A stretch of 64,000 bases of DNA from a virus, in the IMG/VR virus record IMGVR_UViG_3300015371_000003, positions 1 to 64,000 of that record; one strand, given 5' to 3'. Position numbers and translations under genes: made by a program. Shown piece by piece: positions 1-50,276 of the stretch (positions are counted from its first letter, which is position 1; each line of letters starts with the position of its first letter). Under the pieces are notes generated by a model, which worked only from the letters and a program-made list of their open reading frames with translations, had not been told where the DNA came from and searched no databases.

Positions 1-2
1 AT

Positions 3-257
3 CAGGCGGAGGCGGTGACGCAGGCGCTTGCCAAGGCCAAGGGTGAACTGCACACCGAGTACGATACCGTCGCGCTCGAAAACATCTGCGCCGGGTATCT
101 CGGAGGCACCTCAGTCGTTCACAAGCCGTTCGATCTGGACGAAGTGATCCAGACGACGGGCTTCGAACCCCTCCTGAACCGGGTGGCGCAGTTGTTCCCG
201 GCGTACGACATCGAAGTCAAGCCTGCGGGTGGCGAAGAAGCGGCGTCCGAAGCCTGA
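3..257 (+). CDS. Hypothetical protein, 5'-truncated
   Basis: An open frame enters from the left edge and ends in TGA. About 84 residues are visible and its start lies outside the window; a GTG at 15 is in frame but has no convincing ribosome binding site. The visible part is soluble and mixed in charge, with an acidic, Ala/Glu-rich tail, and I recognise no family. A strong hairpin follows directly, so it is probably the last gene of an operon. Confidence 0.6.
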   Translation, partial: QAEAVTQALAKAKGELHTEYDTVALENICAGYLGGTSVVHKPFDLDEVIQTTGFEPLLNRVAQLFPAYDIEVKPAGGEEAASEA

Positions 258-7494: not shown

Positions 7495-8625
7495 ATGGCC
7501 CTCCTGTTCATGGATTCGTTCGATCACTACGCCACCGCTGATATCCTCTCCAAGTGGTCAGGATTGAGTACGGGGGGCGGGGCGTCGGCGGGGACGATAG
7601 CCTCAGGCGGGCGGCACAGTTCGAACGCGCTCTCTCTCCAATCCGGGAATAATTCCGCCCAAGCAGGAGCGTACTACTACACTCAACTTCCGGTGAGTGG
7701 GACCACCATGATTTGTGGCGTGGCGGTCAATCCGGGGGACTTCAGTGGGTTCACCACCGGTTCCAATCCCGAAAGCGGATCGTTCGATGCGTTCAGCCGC
7801 AATAGCTGCACGATTGCGGTGGCGATTCGGCAGGCGGGGCAGACGCAAGCCTTCCTTCGACTCAATTCAGACGGCACCGTGAGTGCCTTTGTCGGGAATG
7901 CCACCTTCGGGGAGAACGGGGTGTTGCTCGGCACGTCGTCCGCGACGTTGACGGCGAATGCGTTTAATTTCCTCGAAGTGAAGATTACCGTCCACAACAC
8001 GGCGGGCGTGTTCATTGTTCGTTTGAATGGGAATCCGACGCCCATCATCAACCTCTCAGGAGTGGATACCCAAGCGACGGGCACAGCCGCATGGGATAGT
8101 TTCCGGCTCGGGCGCACCTCGACTAATGCGTCGGTGAATCGCGTGTGTCTCTACGACGATCTGTATGTGCTGGATGGCTCCGGCTCAGGACCGTGGAATG
8201 ATTTCTTGGGAGATTGCCGCGTTGATACTCGTGTGCCGACAGGTGCAGGGGCTACGACGCAGTGGACGCCTTCCGGTGGAGCGAATTACGCCGCCGTGGA
8301 TGAAATTCCCCCCAACGGAGACACCGATTACGTGTCCGCGTTGACGGCTCCGGCCACGGATACCTACGTGGTGCAAGACGCCGCAGTTCCGGCCATCATC
8401 TATGGCGTGCAACAGTGTCTCAATGCGAAAAAGACGGATGCGGGCGCGTGTTCACTGGCTCCGGTGGTGCGAGTGGGAGGGGTGGATTACGTGGGGGCGG
8501 ATTTCTTTCCGGCCACGGGGTACGGGTACGGGTATCAAATTCTGGCTCAGAATCCCGCCACCGCTGCTCAATGGGTGTTAAGTGAATTCAACGCCGCAGA
8601 GTTTGGCGTGAAGCGCACGCTGTAA
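7495..8625 (+). CDS. LamG-like virion/tail protein, copy 1
   Basis: 376 aa. It opens MALLFMDSFDHYATADI, a start shared by a family of phage structural proteins. Residues 15-230 look like a concanavalin/LamG beta-sandwich (FLEVKITVHNTAGVFIVRLNGN, LYDDLYVLDGSG). The C-terminal part (DTRVPTGAGATTQWTP ... EFNAAEFGVKRTL) is conserved in copy 2. It is probably an exposed carbohydrate-binding decoration or tail component. The next gene is a close paralogue, so the pair arose by tandem duplication. Confidence 0.7.
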   Translation: MALLFMDSFDHYATADILSKWSGLSTGGGASAGTIASGGRHSSNALSLQSGNNSAQAGAYYYTQLPVSGTTMICGVAVNPGDFSGFTTGSNPESGSFDAFSRNSCTIAVAIRQAGQTQAFLRLNSDGTVSAFVGNATFGENGVLLGTSSATLTANAFNFLEVKITVHNTAGVFIVRLNGNPTPIINLSGVDTQATGTAAWDSFRLGRTSTNASVNRVCLYDDLYVLDGSGSGPWNDFLGDCRVDTRVPTGAGATTQWTPSGGANYAAVDEIPPNGDTDYVSALTAPATDTYVVQDAAVPAIIYGVQQCLNAKKTDAGACSLAPVVRVGGVDYVGADFFPATGYGYGYQILAQNPATAAQWVLSEFNAAEFGVKRTL

Positions 8626-8631
8626 GGACAC

Positions 8632-9750
8632 ATGGCCCTCCTCTTTGCTGATTCCTTCGATCACTACGTTACCGCTGATTTAGCGTCGAAGTGGACTTCC
8701 AATGTGGCGGGGGATATTGGGACCGCTTCGATTAGTGCGAGCAATGGACGGCATAGCTCGGCAGCGTTGCAGATCCAATCGTCCAATAGCACCGGGTGGG
8801 CCGGGGCGTACATGCTCAAGACGCTCACTCCCGGTGATTCTACGATTATCTGTGGCGTGGCGTTCAATCCGGGCAATTTTGTCTTTGCCACGGGCACGGA
8901 TCCGGATTTCACGGGCAACTCAGGGGCAGGGGCGTGTACGTGTGCGATGGCCGTGCGGCTCAATACGTTCGTGCAAGCCTTCCTTCGCGTCAATCCAAGT
9001 GGGACGGTGAGTGCCTACCGGGGCAATGCCTCAAGTGGGGGCGGCACGTTGTTAGGATCGTCATCGCTGCCGTTAATGGCAAACGTTTTCAACTACCTTG
9101 AAATCAAAATCACGATTGACAACAGCGCAGGCGTGTTTATCGTGCGGCTCAACGGCAATCCGACACCGATCCTGAATCTCACTGGGCAGGATACGCAATC
9201 GCAAGCGACTTCTGCATGGAACGGATTACAGGTGGGGCGTGTGTCGTCAGGGGGAGGAACGCAGACGTGCCGGTGGGATGATCTGTATGTGCTCGATGGG
9301 ACGGGATCGGCCCCGTGGAATACGTTCCTCGGAGATGTGCGAGTCGATGCGCGACTCCCCACCGGAGCCGGGACCACGACGGGATGGACGCCTTCGACGG
9401 GATCGAATTACGCGGCGGTGGATGATGCGGCCCCCAACAGCGATACCGATTACGTGGCGGCGACTTCAACCCCTCTGACGGATACGTATGTGTTTCAAGA
9501 TGTGCCCGTGGCGGGATCGACAGTGTTGGGGGTGCAGCATTGCATCTATGCGAAGAAGATCGACGGCGGCACGTGTGCGATTGCGCCTGTGGTCAGGCAC
9601 AGCAGCACGGATTACGTGGGGAGTGATTTGTTTCCCGGCACGAGCTATGGGTACGGGCTGCTGATGCAACCCACCAATCCCGGCACGAGTGCTCAGTGGA
9701 CGGAGAGCGATTTCAACGCGGCGGAATTCGGGGTGAAGCGCACAGCCTGA
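8632..9750 (+). CDS. LamG-like virion/tail protein, copy 2
   Basis: 372 aa, paralogous over its full length to the preceding protein. It has the same MALLF.DSFDHY start, beta-sandwich segment (YLEIKITIDNSAGVFIVRLNGN), WDDLYVLDGTGSAPWN and EFGVKRT end. Divergence is spread throughout, which suggests an old duplication with different ligands. Only 6 bases separate the genes, so they share a transcript. Confidence 0.7.
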   Translation: MALLFADSFDHYVTADLASKWTSNVAGDIGTASISASNGRHSSAALQIQSSNSTGWAGAYMLKTLTPGDSTIICGVAFNPGNFVFATGTDPDFTGNSGAGACTCAMAVRLNTFVQAFLRVNPSGTVSAYRGNASSGGGTLLGSSSLPLMANVFNYLEIKITIDNSAGVFIVRLNGNPTPILNLTGQDTQSQATSAWNGLQVGRVSSGGGTQTCRWDDLYVLDGTGSAPWNTFLGDVRVDARLPTGAGTTTGWTPSTGSNYAAVDDAAPNSDTDYVAATSTPLTDTYVFQDVPVAGSTVLGVQHCIYAKKIDGGTCAIAPVVRHSSTDYVGSDLFPGTSYGYGLLMQPTNPGTSAQWTESDFNAAEFGVKRTA

Positions 9751-24350: not shown

Positions 24351-24380
24351 TTGACGGTGATCTAACCCCTTCCATATTGT
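24351..24380 (+). promoter_or_regulatory. Promoter for the PEP-CTERM genes
   Basis: TTGACG (24351-24356), 18 bp, TATTGT (24375-24380). Weaker than the standard promoters here and with a different -10. The leader is AT-rich (AAAATTTTTTGGGAGGG). Confidence 0.55.
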
Positions 24381-24422: not shown

Positions 24423-25112
24423 ATGAGACGAACACGACTCGGCGTGGCGCTTGGATTGTTGATGATGATGCTGGTTCCTCTGACGGCGCGAGCCGCGTCG
24501 GTGACGTTCGTGCTGAATCTCGAATTCAGCGGAGGCGGCACGCCTTCAGGGTTCCCGTCCGTGACGCTGACCGATATCTCACTGGGTACGGTGCAGATGA
24601 CGGCTACGTCGAATCTGTCGGGAACCGAATTCATCGATGACTTGTTCCTGAACAGCACCATTCTGCCCACGAGCGTGACCTACAACTCGGGCGCACAGGC
24701 GAACAGCGTGTCGGTGACGGCTGACAGCTTCAAGGCTGATGGGGATGGCTTCTTCGACATTCTGTTGGACTATCCGCCGCCGCCCGGAAATTCTCCGAAT
24801 CAGTTTGGGGCGGGTGTGGTGTCGGTCTATACATTCAGCGCAGTCGGATTGACTTCCGGGGCGTTCAACGTCGCCAGTTCCTGCGGGCAGGGTTGTGGCA
24901 ACGGGGGCTATTTTGCCGCCGCCCACGTGCAGAGCATTGCGATTCCCGGTCAGGCTGACAGCGGCTGGATTGGTGATGGCAACGGCGGCACGGGGGATTG
25001 CGTCGGCTGCACGCCTAATCCGACCGGCACGACGGTTCCTGAACCGGCGAGTCTCGTGCTGCTTGGCAGCGGGTTGGTAGCGATGGTGCGTCAGGTGAAG
25101 CGGCGGAAGTAA
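24423..25112 (+). CDS. Exported PEP-CTERM protein 1
   Basis: 229 aa. A signal peptide (basic RRTR, hydrophobic residues 7-21, cleavage after ARA) precedes a Ser/Thr/Gly-rich beta domain. The C-terminus carries VPEPASLVLLGSGLVAMV then RQVKRRK: the PEP box, membrane helix and basic tail that exosortases recognise. In hosts such proteins are sorted to the surface with exopolysaccharide. Finding it between phage genes, beside a second copy, is unusual; no exosortase is visible, so host sorting would be required. Confidence 0.85.
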   Translation: MRRTRLGVALGLLMMMLVPLTARAASVTFVLNLEFSGGGTPSGFPSVTLTDISLGTVQMTATSNLSGTEFIDDLFLNSTILPTSVTYNSGAQANSVSVTADSFKADGDGFFDILLDYPPPPGNSPNQFGAGVVSVYTFSAVGLTSGAFNVASSCGQGCGNGGYFAAAHVQSIAIPGQADSGWIGDGNGGTGDCVGCTPNPTGTTVPEPASLVLLGSGLVAMVRQVKRRK

Positions 25113-25175
25113 CAGAGTTGCTGGTGGGGCAACCGTGGCGGCGACGGTGACGCCGTAGAGGAGAGGGAAGTATTT

Positions 25176-25829
25176 ATGCGACGAGTCTTGTGCGCGGTGA
25201 TGGTAGCAGCAGCGATGCTGGCGGCTCAGGCGGCTTCGGCCAACACGATTCTGGTCTTCGGACAGAACGGCGGCGGCAACATCTTCTTCGGAGATGAGAC
25301 GGCGGGCATTACGCATCTGCAAGCCACAAACATCCCGCTGACGATCACGACGCTGAACGAGACAGCCGTCTCGCTGAATGCGTTCCTGAATCTGGCGGCA
25401 AACAGTACGGCGGCGGTGAATTGTATCGCCACCCTGTGTACGCAGCCTTACAGTGGGAATTTCCAGATCACGTCCGCGCAGAACGGGGGAGGGACCAATT
25501 ACCTGTCAGGCGTGTTTAGTGGGACCGATCTGGGCATCCTCGGAGGGACGCAGTACGTGCTCGGTGCGACACAGCCGCCGGGATCCCTGTCGTTCACGTC
25601 GAGTGTGCCGGGACTGCCCACCAGCATTCCGACTGCGATGTCTCTCGGGCTGACGAACGTGTCTCCGGGCGTGGGGATTTCGAACAATTCGTTTGCCGAT
25701 TTCAATTCCAACGTGGCAGGCACGTTCTCGGCGTTTCCGGCTTCGACAGTGCCGGAACCGGCGAGTCTGTTGCTCCTCGGCACTGGATTGGCGGCAGCAG
25801 CACGGAAGTTGCGGAAGCGTCGGCAGTAA
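25176..25829 (+). CDS. Exported PEP-CTERM protein 2
   Basis: 217 aa. Signal peptide (RRVLCAVMVAAAMLAAQAASA), a Thr/Ser/Asn-rich beta body, and a C-terminal VPEPASLLLLGTGLAAAARK with KLRKRRQ tail: a full PEP-CTERM signal. The body differs from copy 1, but the sorting signal is nearly the same. AGGAGAGGG precedes the ATG, and a terminator follows, closing a two-gene operon. Confidence 0.85.
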   Translation: MRRVLCAVMVAAAMLAAQAASANTILVFGQNGGGNIFFGDETAGITHLQATNIPLTITTLNETAVSLNAFLNLAANSTAAVNCIATLCTQPYSGNFQITSAQNGGGTNYLSGVFSGTDLGILGGTQYVLGATQPPGSLSFTSSVPGLPTSIPTAMSLGLTNVSPGVGISNNSFADFNSNVAGTFSAFPASTVPEPASLLLLGTGLAAAARKLRKRRQ

Positions 25830-25836
25830 CTGGACG

Positions 25837-25863
25837 GGGTGGGAGCAATCCCACCCTCGTTTT
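25837..25863 (+). terminator. Rho-independent terminator
   Basis: Perfect 8-bp stem GGGTGGGA/TCCCACCC with a 4-base loop, then TCGTTTTC. Ends the PEP-CTERM operon. Confidence 0.8.
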
Positions 25864-25879
25864 CTCCCAAGGAGTGGGG

Positions 25880-25894: not shown

Positions 25895-25924
25895 TTGACA
25901 AATCACTGTTTAATGTGCCATACT
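25895..25924 (+). promoter_or_regulatory. Promoter (leaderless type)
   Basis: TTGACA (25895-25900), 18 bp, CATACT (25919-25924). The ATG at 25932 lies at the predicted transcription start. Confidence 0.8.
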
Positions 25925-26590: not shown

Positions 26591-26754
26591 AGGCGAAGTC
26601 TGGGCCTCCTTCGCGTCCGTTGACGTGGGGGATCGTGTGGCGGATGGCGATTATCTGCGGGTGGTGGTCCGCTATTGTCGTGGCGGTTTGGTGGTGGCTT
26701 CGCTTCTTCTCGCAGACAGCGGTGGGAGAGTTGCTCCTGAGTATCTGGCGATGA
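26587..26754 (+). CDS. Small Trp-rich membrane protein
   Basis: 55 aa. The central IVWRMAIICGWWSAIVVAVWWW is a hydrophobic membrane segment. ATGA overlaps at both ends. Next to an exported protein, so perhaps envelope-related. Confidence 0.5.
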   Translation: MKAKSGPPSRPLTWGIVWRMAIICGWWSAIVVAVWWWLRFFSQTAVGELLLSIWR

Positions 26755-27230
26755 TGAAGCGCATTATCGCAGGGGTACTGGTCGTGCTGGTCGCTGGAAG
26801 TGGTATCCCGGCATCGGCACAGGACACGGGTTCAAGTCAGGATACGTGTGCGTGGACCAAGGAACATCATCTGGTGGATTTGCTCGGGGTGTGCCCCGTG
26901 CCACCGCCACCTCCACCGCCACCGGAGTACAAGTTCTTCAGTCCCACCCTTCAAGGCGTGGGCGTGGTGTCCATCCTCGTCGGTGGGGCGCTTATCATCG
27001 GACAGGGGCAGACTTACAGCATTCTCGGGGACAAATACTGCGTGACGGAGTACGCGGTGGATTACGGGTCTTGTTACGATCCGACATTGGCAAGGATTGG
27101 GTTGTATACCATCTCAGCCGGGGTTATGATGATCTTAATCGGGCATCATCGTGTGTTGGTGACGCCCACGGTGAGTCAGGCCCAGAAAAGCGTGACGGCC
27201 ACCGTACGGTGGGGCGGGAAACGGAAGTGA
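26751..27230 (+). CDS. Exported or membrane protein with polyproline linker
   Basis: 159 aa. Signal peptide (KRIIAGVLVVLVAGSGIPASA, likely cut before QDTG). The short mature N-terminus contains two Cys and a run of eight prolines, followed by two hydrophobic segments (about residues 75-95 and 120-140) and a basic C-terminus. Possibly a periplasm-spanning envelope protein. Not recognised. Confidence 0.55.
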   Translation: MMKRIIAGVLVVLVAGSGIPASAQDTGSSQDTCAWTKEHHLVDLLGVCPVPPPPPPPPEYKFFSPTLQGVGVVSILVGGALIIGQGQTYSILGDKYCVTEYAVDYGSCYDPTLARIGLYTISAGVMMILIGHHRVLVTPTVSQAQKSVTATVRWGGKRK

Positions 27231-28928: not shown

Positions 28929-29123
28929 ATGATGGGAGACAAGGTGACGTTGCGTGTATCGCTACACGCAACCGCCCTTGAATTGTGGCTGAACGGCCAG
29001 TGCGTGGGGCGTATTCCTGCACAGCGGGTGCCCCCGGAGCATGATAAGGTAGTGCCGGAGGTATCACGTGACGAAATATCTGCTGGCAATAGTGGTGGTG
29101 ATCGGGGTGAGTATGCCCCGTGA
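28929..29123 (+). CDS. Small hypothetical protein
   Basis: 64 aa with AGGGAGGG upstream. Beta-rich start (KVTLRVSLHATALELWLNGQCVG), then charged and overlapping the next gene's 5' end by 56 bases, so the C-terminal part may be unstructured. Confidence 0.45.
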   Translation: MMGDKVTLRVSLHATALELWLNGQCVGRIPAQRVPPEHDKVVPEVSRDEISAGNSGGDRGEYAP

Positions 29124-29601
29124 GGCAGCGGCTCAGGCAAGTGTGACGAACGTGCAGATCGGCTATCAGTTTCTGCATTACTCAGGGATCGACGGTGGCG
29201 ACGGAGCCAGCTTCCCTCTTGGCTTCGCCCTGACCGGGGCAGTGCCGGTGAGCGGCCAGTGGAGTGGCGTGGCGGATCTAACGTGGGGACGGCATTCAGA
29301 AGATACCCCCTTCGGGGATTTCCACGTTTCAGAAACGACGCTGACCGGCGGCGTCCGCTGGACGGAGATGAAGAACTGGTGGGCGGCTCAGCTACTCCTC
29401 GGCTTGAACCACGAAGGCGTCAGTGATTGCAACGACTGTGGCTCCAACGATTTCGTGTTCATGCCGGGGATCTTGGCGCGGCGACCGCTGAACAGTGCGT
29501 GGAACGTCTACGGACGATTTGATTATCGGCATGTCTTTTTCGAAGGGGAGGGCGTGAATGGCTTCGCACTCATCGTCGGAGTCGAACGCCCGCTCAAGTG
29601 A
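29068..29601 (+). CDS. Outer-membrane beta-barrel-like protein
   Basis: 177 aa from a GTG. Signal peptide (KYLLAIVVVIGVSMPREAAA). The mature part alternates aromatic and small residues in strands typical of 8-stranded barrels (NVQIGYQFLHYSG, GFALTGAVPVSGQWSGVADLTWG, WAAQLLLGLNHEG, WNVYGRFDYRHVFF, NGFALIVGVERPLK). A GVSDCNDCGSND loop could be a disulfide loop at the surface. It may alter the host surface, for example in superinfection exclusion. The last residue is not aromatic, so barrel assembly is not certain. Confidence 0.6.
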   Translation: MTKYLLAIVVVIGVSMPREAAAQASVTNVQIGYQFLHYSGIDGGDGASFPLGFALTGAVPVSGQWSGVADLTWGRHSEDTPFGDFHVSETTLTGGVRWTEMKNWWAAQLLLGLNHEGVSDCNDCGSNDFVFMPGILARRPLNSAWNVYGRFDYRHVFFEGEGVNGFALIVGVERPLK

Positions 29602-40332: not shown

Positions 40333-42312
40333 ATGGAGTTTGTTTCCTTCGGATTCACGAACGATGAGGCGGCTGGTTCCCCGGAACTATTGGGGGGCAA
40401 GGGCGCGGGCCTCTTGTGGCTGTCACGGCAAGGGGTGCCGGTGCCACCCGGATTCGTGATTCCTACGTCCGTCTGGGCGGAGTACGACAAAAAGCCGAAG
40501 TCCACGATGAAGGCGATTGCCAAGGCATTGCCGGTCTATCTGAAGCAACTCGACGCCTACTTCGGGTACCGTCCGCTTCTTTCCGTCCGCTCGGGTGCCC
40601 GTGTCTCGTGCCCCGGCATGATGGATACGATCCTCAACGTGGGGATCGACGGCGATACCACGGCGGAATGGCTCAAGCGGTTGGGTCCGACGTGCTTCGG
40701 GGATAGCTTCAAGCGGCTGGTCCAGATGTACGGGTCCGTCGTCAAGGGGCTTCGCAAGGAAATCTTCGACGGGGATCTGAAGACGGCCCTCGACGTGTAT
40801 CAGGCCAAAACGGAGCAGGCGTTTCCGGACGCTGAAGCCCAACTCCTTGGAGCCATCGAAGCGGTGTTCAAGTCGTGGGATAACGACCGGGCGGAGGAGT
40901 ACCGCAAGATGCACGGGTACGACCGGGCGTGGGGAACGGCGGTCACGGTGCAAGCGATGGTCTTCGGGAATCTGAACGACCAGAGCGGAACCGGCGTGCT
41001 GTTCACGCGCAACCCGAATACCGGCGACAACGAAGTCACGGGCGAATATCTCCGCAACGCGCAGGGGGAAGATATCGTGGCCGGGATCCGGACCCCGGAG
41101 CAGTTGCACGAGTTGCCGTTTGATTTCGGCGTGCCCTTGCATTCGGATCTTCTGGATCTGGTCAAGAAACTCGAAACGCTCAAGCGGGAAATGCTCGACA
41201 TCGAATTCACGATTCAGAACGGCAAGCTGTATCTCTTGCAGGTTCGCAGTGGCAAGCGCACGGCTATTGCCGCCCTGAAGATTGCGGTGGATCTGACGAA
41301 GCAGGGGTTGATCGATGCTCAAACAGCGGTGAGCCGGGTATCGCCCCGTGAATTCGATTTGGCGCAGGAAACGATACTGGATCCGGCGTTTACGACGGTC
41401 CCGGCATTTCAGGGGATCGGAGCCAGCAACGGGATCGTCAGCGGCGTGCCGGTGTTCACGAAGGAAGACGCCATCGAAAGCAAGGTGCCCTGCATCCTCG
41501 TGCGAGAAGAAACGACGCCGGAGGATATCAAGGGAATGAATGCGGCGGCGGGCGTGCTGACGATGAAGGGGGGCTTCACGTCGCATGCGGCGGTGGTGGC
41601 CCGTCAGATGAATCGGGCGTGCGTCGTCGGGCTGGAGCAGTCGGTGGAAGCGTTTACGAATGTCGAAGTCATCAGCCTTGACGGAGCCACGGGCCGGGTG
41701 TGGACCGAAAAGGTGCCGGTCATCAGCGGGCAGACCAACGGCGTGGTCAAGGATTTCACGGCAATGGTCTACTCGACACTGAACGGGGTCATCCCGATTG
41801 TGTTCGACGTGCCCACGGTGCCGGTCAACGAAGCGTTGCTCTATCTGGGGGATCAGATTCTGCATCCGGAGCAGGCGATTCAGACGGTGTTGCTCTCGTT
41901 GTCAAAGGTGCAGCGGCTGTATCTGGATCTGGTCCCAAGCGAGGAGGAATCACGGTTCCTCAAGCTGGTGGCGGCTCACAAGGTGACGGAGCGGTTTCTG
42001 GAAGCCTTGTCTCAGGTGCTGCCGAAGCATCACCCGCTGTTTTCTCGGTTGGTGGTGGTGGTCAAGCCGGGAGTGACCGTGGCGTTCTCGCACATGGTGG
42101 CGGGCGCGGATCTGCGGTCCCTCGTGCTGTCGGATACGGAAGTGATTCTGGACGGCGTGGATACGCTGGACCCGGCGATTCAGCGGGTGCTGGCGTGGAA
42201 GCTGGCGCAGGGGCTGTCGGCGGTGTCTATCGGCGCGTATGTGCCGGAGGCCAAGTCCATGTTGAGCGTGTCTCAAGCGTTGCAATTGATTGCCAACGGG
42301 AAGGGGGCATGA
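40333..42312 (+). CDS. PPDK-like PEP-utilising phosphotransferase without the PEP/pyruvate barrel
   Basis: 659 aa. Residues 20-330 match the nucleotide-binding domain of pyruvate phosphate dikinase (LLGGKGAGLLWLSRQGVPVPPGF, LSVRSGARVSCPGMMDTILNVG, VLFTRNPNTG, LLQVRSGKR). Residues 360-455 are the phosphohistidine domain, with GGFTSHAAVVAR (His418) and the following MNRACVVG. The next 200 residues do not look like the TIM barrel that binds PEP in dikinases (normal length about 870 aa). It could pass phosphate from ATP to another acceptor. Site 20 lies in its last codons. Confidence 0.75.
   Translation: MEFVSFGFTNDEAAGSPELLGGKGAGLLWLSRQGVPVPPGFVIPTSVWAEYDKKPKSTMKAIAKALPVYLKQLDAYFGYRPLLSVRSGARVSCPGMMDTILNVGIDGDTTAEWLKRLGPTCFGDSFKRLVQMYGSVVKGLRKEIFDGDLKTALDVYQAKTEQAFPDAEAQLLGAIEAVFKSWDNDRAEEYRKMHGYDRAWGTAVTVQAMVFGNLNDQSGTGVLFTRNPNTGDNEVTGEYLRNAQGEDIVAGIRTPEQLHELPFDFGVPLHSDLLDLVKKLETLKREMLDIEFTIQNGKLYLLQVRSGKRTAIAALKIAVDLTKQGLIDAQTAVSRVSPREFDLAQETILDPAFTTVPAFQGIGASNGIVSGVPVFTKEDAIESKVPCILVREETTPEDIKGMNAAAGVLTMKGGFTSHAAVVARQMNRACVVGLEQSVEAFTNVEVISLDGATGRVWTEKVPVISGQTNGVVKDFTAMVYSTLNGVIPIVFDVPTVPVNEALLYLGDQILHPEQAIQTVLLSLSKVQRLYLDLVPSEEESRFLKLVAAHKVTERFLEALSQVLPKHHPLFSRLVVVVKPGVTVAFSHMVAGADLRSLVLSDTEVILDGVDTLDPAIQRVLAWKLAQGLSAVSIGAYVPEAKSMLSVSQALQLIANGKGA
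42281..42294. repeat. 14-bp palindrome site 20
   Basis: TGCAATTGATTGCC, one mismatch, near the 3' end of the PPDK-like gene, read as Leu-Gln-Leu-Ile-Ala. Confidence 0.6.
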
Positions 42313-45474: not shown

Positions 45475-46434
45475 ATGGCAGTGAAACTTAGTTCCGAAGC
45501 ACAGTTGGTGTTCTTCAACCAAATCTTCGGGTCAACCCATCCGGTGGTCGGACAGGCCAAAGCCCTGTTGCAGTCCGGGGTCACGTTCGAAGTCGGTCTG
45601 TACGAGATACAGGCGCATGTCGGCGGCAAGCTGTTGACCAGTCTCAAGCTGACCTATGGGACCACGCCACTGATGAAGGGGCAGGCCAATTCGGTGGTGC
45701 TCGGTCACAACAAAGCCCTCATCGAAGGGTGGGTGGAGGGGGTGTTCAAGAAGCAGGGATCCCCGGCGGTGTATGCGGCGGCGGTGGCTCCGAAGGCTCT
45801 GGTATCGGTGGTGCTCACGGGCGTCTCGGCTCTCGTGGGATCGGTGCTCCCGCTGATCAAGGTGGTTAATGAAGCAATGGGAACCACGGGCACCCTCAAG
45901 GATGCCAAAGCTGCCGTGGACAAGGCCAAGGATGGCATTGCGTCGGTCATCGGTTCGTTTTCGCCCGCTGATGCGGCAACGTTGGCGGCGGCACTGCAAG
46001 CCAAAGGTGGACAGGTGACGGTTGGGGGTGTGGCACCGAAGCCGGTGTTTGCTCCGCAACAGCCGGTGGCCTACAACGCGGCGAAGGTGGATGCCGTGAT
46101 CGATTTGAAAGCGGCGGCGGCACTCGGCCAGAAGGTGCATGGGACCAGTACGGGCAGCGTCTACTACTGCATTGCGATGACGGAGCACGTCAAGGTGGCG
46201 GCACGGCTGACCGCCGGAGGTTCTGTCTCCATTCGCGTGGAGTGGACGGACAATCCGAAGGATGATCTGAAGAAGCTGACGGAGGCCGGGGTCATCATGA
46301 AGCAGGGGTATGGCTCCATCCATTTCGATGCCGAGAACGTGCCCATGCCGCGAGTCGTCGGCGCGTTTCTTCTGGGCACCGGCATCAACTGGAAGCAGAT
46401 CGTCACCAACGGTGCGGAACTGGTGGTGGCGTGA
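45475..46434 (+). CDS. Hypothetical protein upstream of the polymerase
   Basis: 319 aa. Hydrophobic-helical centre (residues 95-170, Ala/Val-rich, VSVVLTGVSALVGSVLPLIKVV), then a C-terminal alpha/beta unit with SVSIRVEWTDNPKDDLKKL, similar in pattern to the small associated domain noted at 11471. No family recognised. Starts the polymerase operon. Confidence 0.6.
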   Translation: MAVKLSSEAQLVFFNQIFGSTHPVVGQAKALLQSGVTFEVGLYEIQAHVGGKLLTSLKLTYGTTPLMKGQANSVVLGHNKALIEGWVEGVFKKQGSPAVYAAAVAPKALVSVVLTGVSALVGSVLPLIKVVNEAMGTTGTLKDAKAAVDKAKDGIASVIGSFSPADAATLAAALQAKGGQVTVGGVAPKPVFAPQQPVAYNAAKVDAVIDLKAAAALGQKVHGTSTGSVYYCIAMTEHVKVAARLTAGGSVSIRVEWTDNPKDDLKKLTEAGVIMKQGYGSIHFDAENVPMPRVVGAFLLGTGINWKQIVTNGAELVVA

Positions 46435-46691: not shown

Positions 46692-47185
46692 TGGATCTGG
46701 CGTATTTCGCGGCGGATACCCTTGGGGTGACGCTCTACCAAATTGGGGACACGTTGACGGCCAACGAGGTGCGCCAGACGGCACTCGGGCCATGGACGCT
46801 GGATCTGCCGATGGATGTGGAGTCCGATATCCTCTCCGGCACTGAGCTAGGCTTCTGGGTCACGCTTGGCAAGCAATTGCACCTCTACGTGGTCGTGCGG
46901 GAGAAGGAGAACTGGCTGTTCGTCCTGAACCACACGAAGCTGGCGGACTGCGAGCAACAGACCCTGTTCGAAGCCCAGACCATCATCGGACGGCTGAAGG
47001 AATTCAAACCGGCTATTGTGGGCGTGTTTGAGTGGGGTGACAACGAGTGGACCCAAGTCAAGTATGATGGGGGCGGGAGCGAGCATGCTGACGATCTGGA
47101 CGAAGGGTCTTCCGAACAAGGTACTGCAAGCGTTCTCCCCGGTGCTGCGTTCGGTACCGCATCTGCCCGTCCACGTCGTCAGTGA
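46691..47185 (+). CDS. Hypothetical protein overlapping the polymerase start
   Basis: 164 aa. Beta-rich N-terminal 120 residues (GFWVTLGKQLHLYVVVREKENWLFVLNH), then a disordered Gly/Ser/Ala tail that overlaps the polymerase gene by 101 bases. The tail probably results from the overlap. Site 22 is inside. Confidence 0.55.
   Translation: MDLAYFAADTLGVTLYQIGDTLTANEVRQTALGPWTLDLPMDVESDILSGTELGFWVTLGKQLHLYVVVREKENWLFVLNHTKLADCEQQTLFEAQTIIGRLKEFKPAIVGVFEWGDNEWTQVKYDGGGSEHADDLDEGSSEQGTASVLPGAAFGTASARPRRQ
46868..46881. repeat. 14-bp palindrome site 22
   Basis: GGCAAGCAATTGCA, one mismatch, inside the gene at 46691. Confidence 0.55.
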
Positions 47186-50100
47186 TTTTACCGTCCCCGC
47201 TGGCACCAAGACCATCTTGGCGCTTGGCGGGGATTCTCTCAAGCAACTCCAAACCGAAAAGGTGATCGCCAAGAACCGGACGATCACCGCCTACCGGACC
47301 CTCCCGCAAATGCGGGGCGGCGTGCCGGTGCTCATCAGCTACGATTCGAGCATCGGAGAGATTGATTACGGCTACCACGTCGATCTGTTGACGGACGTGA
47401 CGCTGGCGATTCGGTTTTGTCTGACCGGCAACTGGAAACCCGCCTACGGCAAGTATCGCTACGTCCCTGACTTCGCGGAGCTATGCACGTCGATTGAGCA
47501 GCAGCACAAGGCGACCGGCAAACCGGTGGACGTGGCGAAGGATCTGGAAACGTTGGGGCTGGATCCGTATGCCCTCCCCTCCCTGAATCCTCTCTACCCC
47601 GGTGCCTACATCGTGACCATGCAGGCCACGCACCAAGCGGGCACCGCAGATGTAGTGCGCTTCAGTAATCGGGAACACGAGACGGAACGTTTACAAGATC
47701 AGACACTTCGTGAGCAGATTGAGTTTCTGTTGCGCTGTCCCTACGTGCGGCTGAAGGGGGCGAATTTCAAATACGATTTGCATTGGCTGTGGAAGCGGGG
47801 CGGCTTTACCTGTTCCACGTTCTGTTTTGATACCACTATCGTTGGCTCGCTGCTGGATGAGAACCGGTCCAACTCCCTCGACACGCACACCAAGATTTAC
47901 GTGCCGTCGTTGGGTGGGTATGCAGACGTGTTCAACGCGACGGTGGACAAGAGTCGCATGGATCAAGTTCCACCGGATCAACTTCTCCCGTATGCGGGCG
48001 GCGACGTGGATGCGGATCTACAGGTGGCGGCAGCACAGAAGTCGGAACTACTCCGAGACAAGCAACTCACCTCGTTCTACGTGAACATCCTCCACCCGGC
48101 AGCACGGGCCTTCGAATGGGTGGAGCAAGGGGGTGTCCTTGTCGATCTGCCTGCCTTTCAGGAACTGAAGGCAGATTTGGAGCAGGAGCACCAACGGCTG
48201 GTCAAAGAGGCGTGCAAGATCATGGGCGGGCGCATCGTGGCGAAGCACGGTTACATGGTGGACCCCGGTGGTTTCAATCTCACCAAGGCGTCCATGCTCT
48301 GTGACTTCATGTTCAGTCCGATGGGGCTGAATCTGAAACCGCAGATGTATACGGCGAAGCCCGATAAGGATGGGATCAAACGCCCCTCGACGGCAATGGA
48401 ACACCTTGAGATGTTTGCGGAGGTGCCGGAGGCCAAAGCCTTCGTGGAGATTATCCGTGAAGACTCTGGGGTGATGAAGACGTATAACACCTATGTGGTA
48501 GGGTTCTTGGAACATCTCAGGTCGGACGGACGCTTTCACCCCACGTATTATTTGTTCGTAGGCAACCGGGATGACGGGGAAGGCGGGGCCAAGACGGGGC
48601 GGCTCTCCTGTAAAGCTCCGGCCTTCCAGTGTTGCGTGGGCGAGACAGAAGTGGTCACGAATCAGGGGTCACGATGTATTGATTGGTTGGTGGAGCAACG
48701 GGGAGCAGGACTCCATGTGCTGAGCCATACCGGGCAGTGGCAACCGATTGTAGACGTGCATCGAAATGGCGTCCAGCCAGTGTTTCGTGTGAGCACGGTT
48801 AGTGGTCGTGCAATTGACTGCACGGCAAACCATCCGTTGTTGACGCCTGTTGGGTGGGTAAGAACAGATCAGTTGGTGGTGGGGGATCGCTGTTATGTCA
48901 CTCGGACACCGCACGCAACATTACACGAGTCCGACGTATTACTCGTGGAGCGCGATGAAGAATCGTTGCTTGTCGAAGACATCGAAAGATTGGTCCAAGT
49001 ATGGGGGGCGTGGGATCAAAGTGTGCCCTCAGTGGATGACCTTCGAAGGCTTCTTGAACAACATGGGCGAGAAGCCGGGGAAGGGATGGTCTATCGAGCG
49101 GAAAGACGTAAACGGGAATTACGAACCGGGCAATTGTTACTGGGCGACATTGAAGGAGCAGGGCAGCAATCGTCGGAATACCAAATGGATTACATTCGAG
49201 AACAAGACGCAGACCGAGGCGCAGTGGGCGCGGGAGTACGGGATTTCCAGAGGCCGGTTGCATTACCGGCTCTCGATTGGCCTTCCGATGGAGCAAGCAC
49301 TGATGAAGACTACCCGCCCGACCGGAGTGTCTTCCAAGAAGACTGCATCGTTTCTATCGAACCAGTAGGTGAGCGAGAGACGTTTGATTTGACCATTGAA
49401 GGCAGTCATTCGTTCATAGCGAACGGGATTGCGGTCCACAACACGGTGCCCAAGCACACCAAGTACGCACAGCGAATCCGGCGTTGTTATCCGGCTCCAC
49501 CCGGATACGTGGTTGTGGAGCGGGATTACGGACAAGGGGAGCTACGGGTCATTGCGTGCGTAGCCCACGAGACGGGCATGCTGGCGGTGTTCAAAGCAGG
49601 CCGGGACATTCACGCAGACACCGCAGCCCCCTTCTCCGGCTTCACGTATGAGAAGCTGATGGCGTTGGAGGCGACGGATCCCCACACCTTCGAAGAAACG
49701 CGGCAGCTTGGCAAGGCAGGCAATTTTGGGTTGTGCTTCGGCATGAAGGAAGATGGGTTTGTCATCTACGCACGGGTGAACTACGGGGTGAACCTCTCGT
49801 GGGATGAGGCGCACGATTTTCGAAACGGGTTCTTCAAGAAGTACCCGCAACTGCTGGTCTATCACGAGTGGGCCAAGTCGTATGCGCGGCAACACAAATT
49901 CATTCGAACCCCCCTTGGACGGCTGAGACACCTCCCCCTGATCAAGAGTCCCAATCGAGAAGTGGCGGCAAAGGCGGAGCGGCAGGCCATCAACAGTCCG
50001 ATTCAAGGGTGCCTCACGGATATGGGCCTGTGGACGATAGCGTTGGAGCAACAGTCCGGGTTGGCAGAGATTGCGCCATGCTTCGGAGCCTGCCATGATT

Positions 50101-50276
50101 CCCTCATGAACTACGTGCCGGAGGATCGGGTGGATGAGATTGTGACGCGCCAACTGGACCAAATGGAATCGTTACCCTTTGAGAAAGTAGGTTGGCAACC
50201 TCAATTGACGTTTGTTGCGGATGCAAGAGTAGGAAAAAATTGGGGGGATATGACGAAATTCAAGAGGAAGAAATGA
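47085..50276 (+). CDS. polA: Family A DNA polymerase with an intein
   Basis: 1063 aa before splicing, about 792 after. Start chosen at an ATG 6 bases after GGGAG. The 3'-5' exonuclease is visible: KDLETLGLDPY (ExoI), GANFKYDLHWLW (ExoII) and YAGGDVDADLQ (ExoIII). Polymerase motifs are GRLSCKAPAFQ, then after the intein TVPKH (the LQNIP region), motif A VVERDYGQGELRV, motif B RQLGKAGNFGLCFG and motif C GACHDSLMNY. In motif C the usual HDE is HDS. No 5' nuclease domain. It would replicate phage DNA. Residues 516-786 are an intein. Confidence 0.9.
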   Translation: MLTIWTKGLPNKVLQAFSPVLRSVPHLPVHVVSDFTVPAGTKTILALGGDSLKQLQTEKVIAKNRTITAYRTLPQMRGGVPVLISYDSSIGEIDYGYHVDLLTDVTLAIRFCLTGNWKPAYGKYRYVPDFAELCTSIEQQHKATGKPVDVAKDLETLGLDPYALPSLNPLYPGAYIVTMQATHQAGTADVVRFSNREHETERLQDQTLREQIEFLLRCPYVRLKGANFKYDLHWLWKRGGFTCSTFCFDTTIVGSLLDENRSNSLDTHTKIYVPSLGGYADVFNATVDKSRMDQVPPDQLLPYAGGDVDADLQVAAAQKSELLRDKQLTSFYVNILHPAARAFEWVEQGGVLVDLPAFQELKADLEQEHQRLVKEACKIMGGRIVAKHGYMVDPGGFNLTKASMLCDFMFSPMGLNLKPQMYTAKPDKDGIKRPSTAMEHLEMFAEVPEAKAFVEIIREDSGVMKTYNTYVVGFLEHLRSDGRFHPTYYLFVGNRDDGEGGAKTGRLSCKAPAFQCCVGETEVVTNQGSRCIDWLVEQRGAGLHVLSHTGQWQPIVDVHRNGVQPVFRVSTVSGRAIDCTANHPLLTPVGWVRTDQLVVGDRCYVTRTPHATLHESDVLLVERDEESLLVEDIERLVQVWGAWDQSVPSVDDLRRLLEQHGREAGEGMVYRAERRKRELRTGQLLLGDIEGAGQQSSEYQMDYIREQDADRGAVGAGVRDFQRPVALPALDWPSDGASTDEDYPPDRSVFQEDCIVSIEPVGERETFDLTIEGSHSFIANGIAVHNTVPKHTKYAQRIRRCYPAPPGYVVVERDYGQGELRVIACVAHETGMLAVFKAGRDIHADTAAPFSGFTYEKLMALEATDPHTFEETRQLGKAGNFGLCFGMKEDGFVIYARVNYGVNLSWDEAHDFRNGFFKKYPQLLVYHEWAKSYARQHKFIRTPLGRLRHLPLIKSPNREVAAKAERQAINSPIQGCLTDMGLWTIALEQQSGLAEIAPCFGACHDSLMNYVPEDRVDEIVTRQLDQMESLPFEKVGWQPQLTFVADARVGKNWGDMTKFKRKK
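48809..48822. repeat. 14-bp palindrome site 23
   Basis: TGCAATTGACTGCA in the intein's block B region, read as Arg-Ala-Ile-Asp-Cys-Thr. Confidence 0.7.
48895..49368 (+). CDS. HNH homing endonuclease nested out of frame in the intein
   Basis: 157 aa, wholly inside the intein but in the +1 frame relative to the polymerase, with its own ATG (GGTGGGGGAT upstream) and TAG. It matches a free-standing phage endonuclease family: SPTYYSWSAMKNRC, YGGRGIKVCPQW, NNMGEKPGKGWSIERKDVNGNYEPGNCYWAT, EQGSNRR and AQWAREYGISRGRLHYRL (read in segments). It would cut intein-less polymerase genes to spread the intein. Family members usually occur as separate genes. Confidence 0.85.
   Translation: MSLGHRTQHYTSPTYYSWSAMKNRCLSKTSKDWSKYGGRGIKVCPQWMTFEGFLNNMGEKPGKGWSIERKDVNGNYEPGNCYWATLKEQGSNRRNTKWITFENKTQTEAQWAREYGISRGRLHYRLSIGLPMEQALMKTTRPTGVSSKKTASFLSNQ

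Follow-up and report, generated by a model that had tools for sequence, protein, structure and literature searches.

A phage genome deposited as an IMG/VR virus record of 116,229 bp (IMGVR_UViG_3300015371_000003) carries two adjacent genes, here called A and B, whose products read as substrates of the PEP-CTERM/exosortase sorting system, and predicted substrates of this kind recur in several phage lineages, which makes the finding larger than was first noted. PEP-CTERM proteins and exosortases are widespread among bacteria from soil, sludge, and aquatic habitats, and most of the substrates have no known function. The window analysed here comprises the first 64,000 nucleotides of the record, and the positions given below refer to it unless stated otherwise.

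Table 1. Features of the PEP-CTERM gene pair and its flanks in the window.
Feature	Position	Strand	Description
Sigma-70-like promoter upstream of gene A	24351..24380	+	TTGACG, 18 nt, TATTGT; 9/12 consensus matches
Gene A	24423..25112	+	229 aa; signal peptide, beta-rich domain, PEP-CTERM tag
Core motifs of the gene A domain			EFSGG / FKADGDGFFDI / AAHVQ / SGWI
PEP-CTERM sorting tag of gene A	25032..25109	+	VPEPASLVLLGSGLVAMVRQVKRRK
Gene B	25176..25829	+	217 aa; signal peptide, beta-rich domain, PEP-CTERM tag
PEP-CTERM sorting tag of gene B	25746..25826	+	VPEPASLLLLGTGLAAAARKLRKRRQ
Intrinsic terminator 3' of gene B	25836..25867	+	GGGGTGGGA-GCAA-TCCCACCCT then CGTTTTCTCC
Next promoter-like site	25895..25924	+	TTGACA, 18 nt, CATACT, TG before -10; past the terminator

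Both proteins begin with an N-terminal Sec signal peptide, as judged from the sequence and from the N-terminal helix present in both structural models: MRRTRLGVALGLLMMMLVPLTARA followed by ASV in A, and MRRVLCAVMVAAAMLAAQAASA followed by NTI in B, with the cleavage sites placed by eye. Their C-termini, as read from the sequence, consist of VPEPAS, a hydrophobic helix, and a basic tail. The first-pass annotation had described two neighbouring genes with this architecture, and the profile searches confirm it, the C-terminal tags scoring above the curated cut-offs of both Pfam PF07589 (A, 23.9 bits, E 4e-5; B, 30.4 bits, E 4e-7; gathering score 20.7) and NCBIfam TIGR02595 (18.5 and 24.6 bits, respectively; cut-off 16 bits). 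The tags of A and B are the only two PEP-CTERM sites in the whole 116-kb record, so they cannot be put down to a compositional quirk that recurs along the genome. On these sequence grounds, the exosortase-type sorting signals of A and B can be taken as real.

The two genes are predicted to be a self-contained unit, with a sigma-70-like promoter, both reading frames, and a strong terminator. The promoter was assigned by consensus match only, in a region with five promoter-like sites against 1.0 expected, and no convincing sigma-54 -24/-12 element was found upstream of A or B. The terminator hairpin (25836-25857) has a z-score of -2.87, and 4 of 200 shuffled sequences fold equally well. The promoter-like site beyond it would serve the following genes and mark the boundary of the unit. 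This arrangement, combined with the variable presence and place of such genes among relatives described below, is that of a moron, that is, a cargo unit. Two further exported products are encoded near the pair, a proline-rich secreted or membrane protein (26751-27230) and a small outer-membrane beta-barrel-like protein (29068-29601; PF13505, slightly below the cut-off), and their proximity suggests an envelope-modification neighbourhood.

The record that carries the pair encodes a portal (TIGR01540), a major head protein (phrog_1623), a head protease, a primase, a helicase, a UvsX-like recombinase, and an exonuclease; no tyrosine integrase was found in it. The record begins and ends with the same 105 bases (window positions 1-105 and record positions 116125-116229), so the assembly closes on itself, and the genome, which is listed as having no end repeats, is probably complete and either circularly permuted or circularised. 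Compared with the portals of the Stenotrophomonas phages DLP_5, DLP_3, and Summit, its portal shows 43-45% identity over 98% of the length. We describe the phage as Delepquintavirus-like on this basis (44.6% over 98%), the portal being the only protein compared with DLP5, and we do not claim membership of the genus. Two other records, G025 (119.7 kb) and G036 (111.9 kb), are syntenic with it, with about 30-90% protein identity for most genes, and both have PEP-CTERM genes, a tandem pair in G025 and a single gene in G036. These genes do not lie at the place corresponding to 24-26 kb of the window; the homologues that flank them correspond to window genes at 0-0.3 kb on one side and 3.3 kb on the other. 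The product of window gene B shares 35% identity with one G025 protein and 33% with one in G031, and no counterpart of window A was found there. Since both the place and the set of PEP-CTERM genes differ among syntenic relatives, these genes behave as exchangeable cargo in the Delepquintavirus-related group. No PEP-CTERM genes were found in seven partial portal relatives, all of which are fragments.

The first-pass annotation had named as its refutation the possibility that this stretch is host DNA joined to the phage by misassembly, to which a provirus flank may be added. The presence of family A in bacterial genomes is in keeping with such an origin. However, the pair is flanked by phage genes with homologues in the syntenic relatives, the record has terminal repeats and no exosortase, and homologues of B adjoin portal, terminase, and capsid genes elsewhere. 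The occurrence of PEP-CTERM genes in the syntenic relatives, and in about 100 other viral contigs, contradicts misassembly directly. We therefore rejected a misassembly or host flank, on the terminal repeat, synteny, and recurrence, as an exceedingly improbable explanation, and consider A and B to be phage genes, as originally proposed.

Several other features of this genome were noted. A pyruvate phosphate dikinase-like gene (40333-42312) encodes 659 aa, compared with the 865 positions of the dikinase model, and is conserved at 62-66% in relatives. A DNA polymerase I-like gene (47016-50276) contains an intein with N- and C-terminal splicing motifs and is weakly similar to DpoZ aminoadenine polymerases. 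The gene at 45475-46434 has a region resembling the C-terminal domain of ribosomal protein L7/L12 (24.5 bits, cut-off 25.9) and is conserved in relatives. Two tandem genes (7495-8625 and 8632-9750) encode similar proteins that both start with MALLF.DSFDHY and correspond to a single gene in each relative; they are a duplication, possibly of a structural protein.

The phage was expected to rely on the sorting enzyme of its host, and this view holds. An exosortase (EpsH family, PF09721) was found in none of 28 virus records, namely the window's own and 27 others with PEP-CTERM or PDSG-type genes, so that exosortase processing, if it happens, must be carried out by the host enzyme. The pair had also been put forward as a host clue, which it is in a broad sense: it points to a diderm, exosortase-bearing, exopolysaccharide-producing bacterium and to nothing narrower, as the record yielded no tRNA and no host-linked match.

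With a five-member alignment (A3) as the search profile, relatives of B were located in 87 stretches of IMG/VR viral contigs. We fetched 80 of these, nearly all of which match most of the protein; locus L184 matches in the tag only, several of the 80 duplicate earlier loci, and contigs from shared projects are not independent. A portal, terminase, or capsid homologue lies within 6 kb of the family B gene at 53 of the 80 loci. According to PHROGs, the neighbours include portals (phrog_156, phrog_1216, phrog_12), large terminases (phrog_2, phrog_3717, phrog_9), a major head protein (phrog_334), and a DNA methyltransferase. With three portal families plus the Delepquintavirus-like group, family B spans no fewer than four phage lineages. 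At E<=1e-10, the A3 profile found no match in 692 bacterial genomes (398 Pseudomonadota and 294 Planctomycetota), and it matched 10 of 10 viral controls at 2e-36 or better; the idea of B as an ordinary cellular PEP-CTERM family was rejected on these results. We do not call the family virus-only, because Acidobacteriota, Nitrospirota, and other groups were left out of the sample, and its tag dialects are a biased set, because one of the two search patterns fell in the tag.

Family A has a different distribution, with relatives at 20 viral and 18 bacterial loci, the latter in Planctomycetota, Verrucomicrobiota, Myxococcota, Nitrosomonas, and others. The viral entries are a clade of 17 contigs from a group of phages of ~40 kb, window A, and one protein of the virus record G001. 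A tree of the core, from which the tag was excluded, has three changes between virus and cell, as do the bootstrap trees, with the starred branches alone forcing one; phages have thus apparently recruited this family three separate times. Acquisition of the pair from hosts, which had been raised as a question at the outset, is plausible for A, nested as it is among cellular homologues, and is not supported for B, which occurs in viral contigs and in none of the bacterial genomes searched. In the ~40-kb phages, A usually adjoins a third PEP-CTERM family, C, at a site with replication genes (PolA, primase-helicase, helicase) on one side and a tail fibre gene on the other, and 13 of 16 contigs have two PEP-CTERM genes, the other three having one. 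Family C comprises 23 viral loci; of 399 Burkholderiales genomes, 9 have distant cellular homologues of it, whose tag is likewise of the VPEPETYALMLAGL type. These homologues, with the shared tag dialect, suggest a Burkholderiales host, a pointer confined to the A+C phages.

The G001 record, of 76 kb, has a helicase, virion and tail proteins, and a weak portal match. There, the family A core ends in PDAGSTLVLLGGGLVGLGFAGRRLRR, which scores 21.2 bits with the VPDSG-CTERM model (TIGR03778), just below the cut-off of 22, and the gene beside it bears a fainter signal of this kind (14.5 bits); together they form a tandem with VPDSG-CTERM-like tags (L006:5938-7386). One core joined to two sorting dialects is the outcome that would be expected if phages matched the exosortase of their hosts, and a single such case was found.

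Pairwise dN/dS values were 0.13-0.32 for B, 0.19-0.53 for A, and 0.15-0.64 for C, and in family B the rate of change in the last 30 residues mostly does not exceed that of the full-length protein; this purifying selection shows that both the proteins and their tags are maintained. In the AlphaFold model of B (pLDDT 90.6), a beta domain with long strands lies between helices at the N- and C-termini, and the model of A (pLDDT 83.1) follows a similar plan. Sequence profiles found no solved relatives of A or B, and Foldseek at E<=0.001 returned nothing for B (PDB and viral models) or A (PDB), so function cannot be read from the fold. Weak matches of A to chitin- and cellulose-binding modules are hints only.

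We lean, with modest confidence, towards the explanation that A and B are surface-modifying morons that use the host exosortase to coat cells or hold exopolysaccharide. Their products would enter the host Sec pathway through the signal peptides and stay anchored in the inner membrane through the C-terminal helix until the host exosortase cleaved them at the PEP motif, a step that the known system makes very probable. At the outer surface, in the exopolysaccharide layer, the cleaved proteins would be set free or attached, and there they would coat the cell or retain its exopolysaccharide, like their cellular counterparts (PepA, floc-forming bacteria). Sorting is the well-supported part of this account; the benefit to the phage, including the altered biofilm, blocking of other phages, or changed adsorption first suggested, is inferred. 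In cells, PEP-CTERM occurs with an outer membrane and exopolysaccharide genes (PMC1569441), and PepA brings about flocculation through the exopolysaccharide that it retains on cells (PMC9850573; PMC9012009), its overexpression raising the bound and lowering the released fraction (PMC9850573). We infer exopolysaccharide binding by A or B from PEP-CTERM proteins that have the tag, but not the domain, in common with them, and remodelling of the surface or exopolysaccharide is the probable outcome. The infected cell would be shielded from further phages (superinfection exclusion), kept embedded in aggregates, or both; our guess at a ranking of the benefits is superinfection exclusion, then aggregation, then a decoy function. 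Surface proteins block infection in other systems, such as CwpV (PMC4737114) and Ltp (PMC3952083), and we tentatively name superinfection exclusion as a candidate for the main pay-off. Classical exclusion expressed by a lysogen may not apply to most records, because 15 of the 18 tested have no tyrosine integrase.

The surface proteins could instead serve the spread or persistence of infected or lysogenic cells by altering aggregation or membership of flocs and biofilms, with no blocking of phages. The flocculation caused by PepA through retained exopolysaccharide (PMC9850573; PMC9012009) and the lifestyle of the Delepquintavirus relative DLP5, a temperate extrachromosomal phage (PMC5834331), fit this alternative, which we nevertheless hold to be rather unlikely, as the occurrence of family B genes in integrase-less phages and also beside head genes suggests expression in the lytic cycle in some. 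Abundant phage PEP-CTERM proteins might also act as decoys that saturate the host exosortase, so that host PEP-CTERM display is lost and the exopolysaccharide coat loosened before lysis or release; such a role would suit small paired proteins with their own promoter, near-consensus tags, and diverse cores but conserved tags. It is improbable, since the cores too are under purifying selection and the fold of B is modelled with confidence, both needless for a mere decoy. Differences in gene set and location among close relatives, and the apparent host origin of A, are compatible with neutral passengers that have no function for the phage. This reading is very improbable and already largely refuted by selection, with dN/dS at 0.13-0.64 in every comparison, and by recurrence in several phage types; family B was also absent from all 692 bacterial genomes sampled.

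Beyond this pair, we consider it rather probable that the surface-modifying role reflects a general strategy, in which phages of many unrelated kinds make exosortase substrates of their own, drawn in part from virus-borne families that bacterial chromosomes seldom or never carry (B), swap the tag to suit the host (mostly PEP, once of the VPDSG type), and rebuild the exopolysaccharide surface of infected cells. We found no published description of phage-encoded PEP-CTERM proteins in the open-access literature, and, as far as we have checked, the exosortase route had not been linked to phages and adds to the known surface-modifying cargo. If phages repeatedly carry their own substrates, the exosortase system would be a phage-host battleground, and the small phage proteins could be used as tools for testing what exosortase-dependent surface display does. 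They would also extend the surface-modifying genes of phages by a new class with a bearing on flocculation and biofilms, and their tags could help link uncultivated phages to hosts.

Among isolated phages, the closest point of comparison is Delepquintavirus (DLP3, DLP5, Summit), which shares with the window phage a related portal and a pyruvate phosphate dikinase gene. DLP5 is described as a siphovirus that has six moron genes and carries morons with a potential part in modifying membranes (PMC5834331), and its genome of ~96 kb has four tRNAs, whereas that of the window phage is 116 kb with none found. Searches with tblastn returned nothing for A and B in any INPHARED record, Delepquintavirus included; five PEP-CTERM proteins had no match in this collection, and two tag-only queries, a weak test, gave nothing relevant. 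By description, A and B resemble the superinfection-exclusion lipoproteins and other phage morons (Ltp of TP-J34, PMC3952083; reviewed in PMC11436027) in being small, exported, self-contained cargo of variable location that depends on the export machinery of the host, with the difference that Ltp-type lipoproteins are sorted by a lipobox and A and B by an exosortase tag. The signal peptide, variable extracellular domain, PEP motif, helix, and basic tail are the same as in the PEP-CTERM/exosortase (EpsH) system of Gram-negatives (PF07589, TIGR02595; Haft et al. 2006, PMC1569441). In contrast to the cellular proteins, A and B are encoded by a phage without an exosortase, in a two-gene unit with a sigma-70-like promoter, compared with the single-gene operons with sigma-54-type upstream elements of Proteobacteria (PMC1569441). 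Membership of the PepA family of floc proteins (NF033554; PMC9850573, PMC9012009) was rejected, A and B scoring 17.9 and 18.8 bits against a cut-off of 80; the tag class is common to both, and action in the exopolysaccharide layer would be expected.
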